64,000 nucleotides of DNA from Flavobacterium johnsoniae (GTDB taxonomy: Bacteria > Bacteroidota > Bacteroidia > Flavobacteriales > Flavobacteriaceae): NCBI RefSeq assembly GCF_030388325.1, contig NZ_CP103794.1:1922001-1986000 (forward strand), read 5' to 3'. The notes beneath the pieces are model-generated. The model ran no database searches, was not told the DNA's origin, and saw only the letters and a program-made list of their open reading frames with translations. The position numbers and the translations under genes are program-made. This document shows, piece after piece, positions 43,118 through 43,629 of the stretch (position 1 is its first letter; each line of letters opens with the position of its first letter).

Positions 43118-43124
43118 TCTATTT

Positions 43125-43167
43125 TTGCTTTAGGCAGTAGGCTTTAAGCTTTAAGCTTTTTCTACTG
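43125..43167 (-). repeat. Heptad array (TAAGCTT family) before groEL
   Basis: Plus strand: TTGCTTTAGGC (43125-43135), CAGTAG, GCTTTAA (43141), GCTTTAA (43148), GCTTTTT, then CTACTG (43162-43167), which pairs with CAGTAG (43135-43140). Read on the minus strand, the array ends GCCTAAAGCAA 7 nt before the groEL ATG. Confidence 0.8.
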
Positions 43168-43190
43168 CTGTTAATAATTTTTTTATTTGC

Positions 43191-43547
43191 TTACAGCTTT
43201 ACAAGTACTTGTTTTAGTTTGTAAATTTTGCTTTTTATGCTATTGATTTTTTCTATCTGTTTTTCTGCAATTTCATTGTTTAAATATTGCAAATCTTTAG
43301 CTAAAATCAATAAATATTCTGTCTCATTTGCAGAACCCAAAGCAATGTTGAGAAATTGATTAAACTCTTTGTCACTACTTCTTCCGCATCCTTCACTAAT
43401 ATTGGTTGGAATTGAGGAAGATGCTCTTCTAATTTGACTTGTTAATCCATATAATTCTTCTTTTGGAAATAAAGAAGTCATTTTATAAATTTCTAAAGTT
43501 AAAGAGTGGCTAAGTTGCCAAATGTCATATTTTTTAAAATCTCTCAT
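43191..43547 (-). CDS. Four-helix-bundle protein of the S23/IVP family
   Basis: A 118-residue helical protein: MRDFKKYDIWQLSHSLTLEIY, LTSQIRRASSSIPTNISEGCGR and FLNIALGSANETEYLLILAKDL are the three conserved blocks of the family first seen in 23S rRNA intervening sequences. There is no 23S gene here. The related Avd proteins work with reverse transcriptases, but none is nearby. The gene separates groES from groEL and is bounded on both sides by TAAGCTT-type heptad arrays containing the same 11-bp direct repeat. Function of free-standing members is unknown. Confidence 0.88.
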   Translation of the reverse strand: MRDFKKYDIWQLSHSLTLEIYKMTSLFPKEELYGLTSQIRRASSSIPTNISEGCGRSSDKEFNQFLNIALGSANETEYLLILAKDLQYLNNEIAEKQIEKINSIKSKIYKLKQVLVKL

Positions 43548-43555
43548 TTTTGTTC

Positions 43556-43629
43556 TTGCTTTAGGCTTTACGCAATATGCTTTAAGCCTTTAAAAAAGCC
43601 TATAGCTTACTGCTTAAAGCTTACAGCAA
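43556..43629 (-). repeat. Heptad array (TAAGCTT family) between groES and the S23 gene
   Basis: Minus strand after the groES stop: TAAGCTT, TAAGCAG, TAAGCTA, TAGGC, then AAAGGCTTAAAGC and GCCTAAAGCAA (plus TTGCTTTAGGC, 43556-43566), 8 nt before the S23 ATG. The units match those after murG. Confidence 0.8.

Follow-up and report, generated by a model that had tools for sequence, protein, structure and literature searches.

Intervening sequences (IVSs) of 23S rRNA genes have been known for more than 25 years, and their function and origin are unclear (PMC4990558). In the Coxiella IVS, heptameric tandem repeats that vary in number from strain to strain lie directly before the S23 open reading frame (ORF), and RNase III cuts at the first of these repeats (PMC4990558). 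Complementary 7-nt motifs also build the P6b stems of the Nostoc trnL intron, in two classes of which one replaces the other with pairing kept (PMC4476775), and TAACTGA heptamers form abundant intergenic 7-bp direct repeats, mostly directly before start codons, in Beggiatoaceae, Cyanobacteria and some Bacteroidetes (PMC4679880). Here we describe an S23-family gene between groES and groEL in 64,000 nucleotides of Flavobacterium johnsoniae (GCF_030388325.1, contig NZ_CP103794.1, positions 1,922,001 to 1,986,000; hereafter the window), together with its counterparts in other bacteria. The groES-groEL gap probably holds an S23 element of the IVS type, consisting of an arm, the S23 gene and a complementary arm, in a messenger RNA (mRNA) spacer, and the framing of S23 genes in many bacterial groups points to a little-noticed kind of element inside operons. 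Among the open-access literature matches listed, we recognised no account of S23 with heptad arms other than the Coxiella paper; a printed account may exist elsewhere.

On the minus strand of the window the gene order is groES, S23, groEL, with period-7 arrays in both spacers. The S23 gene belongs to PF05635 (E 5.4e-40, 136.3 bits, cut-off 33.8) and to TIGR02436 (23S_rRNA_IVP; 131.6 bits, cut-off 24), and an AlphaFold2 model of residues 2-118 has a mean predicted local distance difference test score (pLDDT) of 97.1. These matches and arrays bear out the preliminary description, made from the letters of the window, in which groES and groEL are set apart by an S23-family gene that has 7-bp arrays to either side. 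The arrays had also been called TAAGCTT-type: their tandem arrangement is unusual, but as a single word TAAGCTT is no commoner in the window than chance would give (16 copies, 19.8 expected). Upstream of S23, the period-7 array covers 43595-43627 (4.7 copies, 73% matches), and downstream 43141-43159 (2.7 copies). The two flanks are separate hairpins, each folded on itself, with -31.2 kcal/mol for the upstream flank (43548-43632) and -12.6 kcal/mol for the smaller hairpin of the downstream flank (43118-43190). Taken as RNA, 43100-43650, which includes the S23 coding sequence, has a fold z of -5.6 against 100 shuffles; an Rfam scan of 41000-45000 gave 6 matches at E up to 1 and 0 at gathering score. 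The genome (G000, 5.32 Mb) has five PF05635 genes, every one in a gap between two genes and with short repeats on both sides that are inverted to each other and locus-specific, most weakly so at L004.

PF05635 is present in 146 of 150 genomes of the genus and in 75 of 99 genomes drawn from the phylum. Loci were taken from all 59 matches of seven complete genus genomes (flanks being given for those with a called start), from the best loci across the phylum, from a pattern scan and from four cyanobacterial plasmids. The scan, which searched DNA for the NIAEG motif written in high-GC codons, yielded 114 loci (L201-L314); 80 entered the main tests, 75 of them with an S23 ORF, and the other 34 were held out (28 with an ORF, 26 with usable flanks). 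A first set of 150 loci contained 147 with a central S23 match (L044, L111 and L145 had none), of which 142 were kept after start-codon calling. Past edge and length filters 207 loci remained, and thinning at 60% identity left 94 that were non-redundant; 46 of these, the 'other phyla' group, come from the pattern scan, with a few Bacteroidota among them.

Throughout this sample, S23 genes are framed by inverted arrays of 7-8-bp units whose sequence differs between loci. A flank was taken to contain a strong array when 14 or more of 21 comparisons at lag 7 or 8 were matches. Such an array was present at 83 of the 94 loci, in many phyla, as against none in the control (one stretch of S23 coding sequence per locus, 0/94); other lags in the same flanks gave 5 (lags 10/11) and 12 (lags 6/9). 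The arms of one locus match each other in inverted orientation, with a score of 15.2 for own and 7.0 for swapped arms. A first swap test on 35 loci, in which the window locus (L002) scored 22 against a cross mean of 10.8 and none of 34 swaps was as high, had orthologues among the swapped controls, and it was therefore repeated on the thinned loci. The lag test was passed by 22 of the 26 held-out loci (0 at lags 10/11), whose own arms scored 16.1 versus 7.4 for swapped arms, with 14 of the 26 above the 95th percentile of swaps.

Upstream arms are G-rich and downstream arms C-rich, so that the arms are directional relative to the S23 gene. Long ORFs lie on the S23 strand on both sides at 106 of the 142 loci and downstream only at 28, with none seen upstream, while 8 loci have a long ORF on the opposite strand. 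The groES-groEL junction also holds S23 in three Planctomycetota genomes (L210, L211, L276) and one Fimbriimonadaceae genome (L250). For the neighbours at compared loci other than groES and groEL, we use names presumed from their sequences; S23 sits at what we take to be the nuoC-nuoD junction in Alphaproteobacteria and in one Bacteroidota genome (L180). The four cyanobacterial plasmid S23 genes have heptad-type arms, and a search for S23 in a phage collection gave no match. One of the plasmid genes, from Picosynechococcus (L478, 1492-1848), lies with repeat arms between a presumed cas10 and a cmr3-family gene of a type III-B CRISPR locus. Another, from Nostoc (L475, 1483-1851), has GGGAGTA arms and stands antisense to both its neighbours, the presumed genes for the beta and alpha subunits of ribonucleotide reductase; it thereby departs from the same-strand rule.

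The preliminary description held that array and S23 form a unit, a view against which S23 without arrays would speak. In the genus, S23 occupies the groES-groEL gap at 5 of the 30 best GroES loci, the window's own included, and is missing from 25; of 20 further picked GroES loci, 15 are without S23 and 5 with it, the latter having been chosen for known S23 there. Across 299 genomes, the S23 proteins fetched at 70% identity or more to that of the window, 26 in number, all lie between groES and groEL with GC-heptad arms. S23 in a gap devoid of arrays was thus not seen, and array and S23 do behave as a unit at sites that also exist free of S23. The next four proteins, about 60% identical, are at other places and have GC-heptad arms of a different consensus. 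Two more matches are partial, one beside its GroES (G107) and one with a stop (G154). Among the S23-free gaps, some have TATTAAG-like repeats, some have inverted repeats of other kinds, and some are plain 22-36-bp spacers. In the same operon gaps of some genomes we also saw another family of inverted repeats, CCTCCCC...GGGGAGG and its kin (L025, L072, L080, L318, L351).

Particular weight had been given to an 11-bp word, TTGCTTTAGGC, as the trace of an insertion, which would make the element a conventional DNA transposon-like unit with terminal inverted repeats that inserted once and left an 11-bp duplication. The word does occur exactly at 43125-43135 and 43556-43566, relatives have S23-free sites, and two S23-free gaps (L011 and L016, of 25) hold a single copy, as an empty site would. 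However, only 2 of 26 related S23-bearing loci have the word at both places: it stands before groEL in 18 of 26 and within 40 nt of the S23 start in 2. A transposon with an 11-bp target-site duplication conserved among copies is thus not what these loci display. The other 23 S23-free gaps and a second set of 15 contain no copy, and the arms vary from locus to locus. The word is itself composed of heptad units and, with up to one mismatch, has 6 copies in the window (1.4 expected). We consider this reading largely contradicted and very unlikely, if slightly less so in view of the two gaps with a single copy. In L011 and L016 an S23-free repeat spacer is followed by the GC-heptad downstream hairpin alone, within which the single word lies on the groEL side; the word is absent from the other 38 S23-free gaps. 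As the spacer before it is of the S23-free type, the word may also be read as a leftover or recombinant, and the two gaps look as if they were recombinant or left over from S23 loss.

The groES-groEL S23 group forms one clade in the thinned tree (11/11), with a ratio of nonsynonymous to synonymous divergence (dN/dS) of about 0.09 among orthologues (median of 239 pairs), and the window S23 gene is under purifying selection. Its dS tracks that of groEL (r 0.73), an agreement that fits mostly vertical descent with losses. Together with the confinement of the 26 fetched members of this subgroup to one gap, these properties would suit a regulator that the groE operon has domesticated to set how much GroES is made relative to GroEL; a possible effect on the stoichiometry of the two had been raised in the preliminary description. 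Such a role is nevertheless improbable: most of the best GroES loci in the genus (25 of 30) do without S23, and the family occurs with the same build in many unrelated operon gaps.

Arms also tend to change together. In orthologous loci own arms scored 15.3 and arms swapped between orthologues 10.8, with own arms higher in 213 of 284 comparisons and, within the groES-groEL group, in 70 of 102. At the locus of L001, whose S23 proteins form a clade (12/12), units shift from TAAG-type to CAAAG-type on both sides. The alphaproteobacterial S23 genes at the presumed nuoC-nuoD junction are likewise one clade (4/4), with three clearly different unit types, those of L221 and L273 being near each other. 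Among pairs of loci without a similar neighbour, a test that may have let some same-locus pairs through, arms were alike in 70% of 23 pairs at S23 identity of at least 65%, in 21% of 96 pairs at 58-65%, in 4% of 728 at 50-58% and in less than 1% of 6,079 below 50%. By these comparisons the two arms of a locus match, tend to be replaced jointly and look like other arms mainly where the S23 proteins are close, so that arm and gene behave as a cognate unit.

In most sampled genomes with several S23 genes there are also 7-bp arrays without S23, and some of these are hairpins built in the same way. We counted 45 lag-7 arrays in 800 kb from four genomes with at least five S23 genes (common in three of the four), 3 in 200 kb of a genome with one S23 (G045), and 4 in 1,000 kb from seven S23-free genomes, which is near background; G219 and G172 are classed as S23-free by protein search only. 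Control lags 5, 10, 11 and 13 gave 0-2 per 100 kb, lag 14 rose with lag 7, and multiples of 3 reached 5 in some. In the surroundings of 75 pattern loci, with S23 and 400 bp on either side excluded, there were 7.9 arrays per 100 kb at lag 7, no more than 0.4 at lags 5, 10 and 11, and between 4.4 and 5.3 at lags 6, 9 and 12. One heptad pattern (GTTTCAR twice plus GTTTCA, one mismatch) was present in 0 of 10 genomes without a match to the window S23 versus 195 of 289 with a match (Fisher 1.9e-5; 1.8e-4 with G035 and G086, which have one PF05635 profile match each, dropped from the S23-free group). It has 153 matches in the window's own genome and 0 for the reversed control, although the control does match in a few other genomes. 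Of 51 arrays from the window and the S23-bearing samples, at least one of which is the window's own S23 arm, 25 share a unit with S23 arms, whereas 7.4 are expected from shuffled units and none of 200 shuffles gave more than 15; the samples with one S23 or none have 2 such arrays among 7.

Alternatively, S23 could be a passenger: heptad hairpins would have their own cause, such as slippage or selection for intercistronic RNA hairpins, and S23 would settle there because insertion is tolerated. Hairpins without S23 exist, as in the gap that we take to be metH-metF, where tblastn with one S23 places the gene in 2 of 30 loci, and nine or more of the other 28 gaps read as heptad hairpins with different units. 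The near-background arrays of the seven S23-free genomes, the absence of one heptad from all ten genus genomes without an S23 match, and an arm type that tracks S23 relatedness at different loci speak against a passenger, which we regard as rather doubtful. The gap of L001 holds S23 in 7 of 30 loci, with what we read as a degraded remnant in L357.

The features of the window are collected in the table below. The S23-free repeats at 10421-10489 and 12953-13060 lie in two gaps of an apparent mur/fts operon, the second of them presumably murG-murC. At the window end (63971-64000), a GAAACCT array with 4.3 perfect copies continues past the last letter; AAACCTG ranks with the most frequent unit classes in the S23-free arrays that were sampled.

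Table. Genes and heptad repeats of the groES-groEL locus, and S23-free heptad repeats elsewhere in the window.
Feature	Position	Strand	Remarks
groES	43630-43905	minus	upstream neighbour of S23; PF00166, 118.3 bits
Upstream heptad array, GCnnnnn units, own hairpin directly before S23 start	43556-43629	minus	sequence, period 7, fold
S23-family four-helix-bundle gene, 118 aa	43191-43547	minus	PF05635
Downstream heptad array and hairpin CAGTAG..CTACTG, stops before groEL start	43125-43171	minus	sequence, period 7, fold
groEL	41486-43117	minus	downstream neighbour of S23; PF00118, 260.5 bits
S23-free heptad array, GC class as in groES-groEL arms; gap 12963-13067	12953-13060	plus	period 7
S23-free heptad hairpin, GTTTCA units; gap between genes 9092-10423 and 10512-11822	10421-10489	plus	fold -29.4 kcal/mol
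S23-free heptad hairpin, ATTTTAG / AAAATCA units	19330-19393	plus	fold -21.6 kcal/mol

Several observations weigh against the reading as an S23 element of the IVS type. Own arms did not exceed the 95th percentile of swaps at 32 of the 94 loci and 12 of the 26 held-out loci, and they were not better than those of orthologues in 71 of 284 comparisons (57 lower, 14 tied). Resemblance in direct orientation also exceeds chance (9.6 versus 6.6; 22 of 94 above the 95th percentile), because flanks often hold both orientations; at the window locus the direct score of 24 even exceeds the inverted score of 22, each flank there holding both orientations and folding on itself rather than across S23. Only 12 of 65 lag-7/8 arrays from the window and the S23-bearing samples are accompanied, no more than 600 bp away, by a strong inverted partner that lies outside the array itself (shifted control 2); in G073, G219, G172 and G045 none of 15 is. 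One genome (G240) has 8 S23 matches and yet 1.5 arrays per 100 kb, and 94 of the 289 genomes with an S23 match are also without the heptad pattern. With 2.0-4.0 Mb, the 10 genomes without a match are small, and genome size may contribute to the association. Moreover, the genomes are not independent, and the association of S23 with arrays gives no direction. Finally, the Coxiella S23 protein is thought not to be made (PMC4990558).

For the S23 element of the groES-groEL gap, we infer that in the transcript the arms would pair into double-stranded RNA, a substrate for RNase III as in 23S rRNA IVSs, and that cutting would uncouple the messages of groES, S23 and groEL while leaving the host operon largely unharmed. 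The S23 protein, with its Avd-like fold, might further bind its own heptad RNA or DNA and help arms to spread, or to be copied, into further operon spacers. S23 shares the fold of Avd, a protein of diversity-generating retroelements, in a fold comparison. By sequence it is not an Avd of that type (NF033474, DivGenRetAVD, 14.9 bits, cut-off 80), and Avd was not among the matches listed in a search of PDB chains with a profile of 7 S23 proteins. As a tentative possibility, S23 proteins could be the trans-acting partner of widespread mobile RNA-hairpin elements: they would bind their own heptad hairpin RNA and, with a host or other polymerase, drive the copying of heptads on a template from one arm to the other and into further operon spacers. 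The copies with S23 would then be autonomous and the many hairpins without it non-autonomous, with 23S rRNA IVSs and perhaps the Nostoc heptad stems as special cases. Should S23 genes as a rule be tied, in operon gaps, to inverted heptad arrays peculiar to each locus, the IVS of 23S rRNA would be one conspicuous instance of a far larger class, and the heptamer repeats of many genomes, the Nostoc stems and IVSs may share a cause.

How, then, does the locus compare with the known systems? The TAACTGA heptamers differ in being a single heptamer, mostly in direct rather than inverted repeats, and the terms S23 and four helix are absent from that paper's text (PMC4679880). The Nostoc trnL P6b stems are alike in being stems of complementary 7-nt repeats and unlike in lying inside a group I intron (PMC4476775); a link between them and S23 may exist. 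The 23S rRNA IVSs of Coxiella, and of Leptospira and others named in PMC4990558, have an S23 ORF between complementary arms, and in Coxiella heptameric repeats before the ORF, and both traits recur at the window locus. Unlike them, the window element lies in the mRNA spacer between groES and groEL rather than in a 23S rRNA gene, the S23 protein of its group is under purifying selection, and its arms differ between loci.
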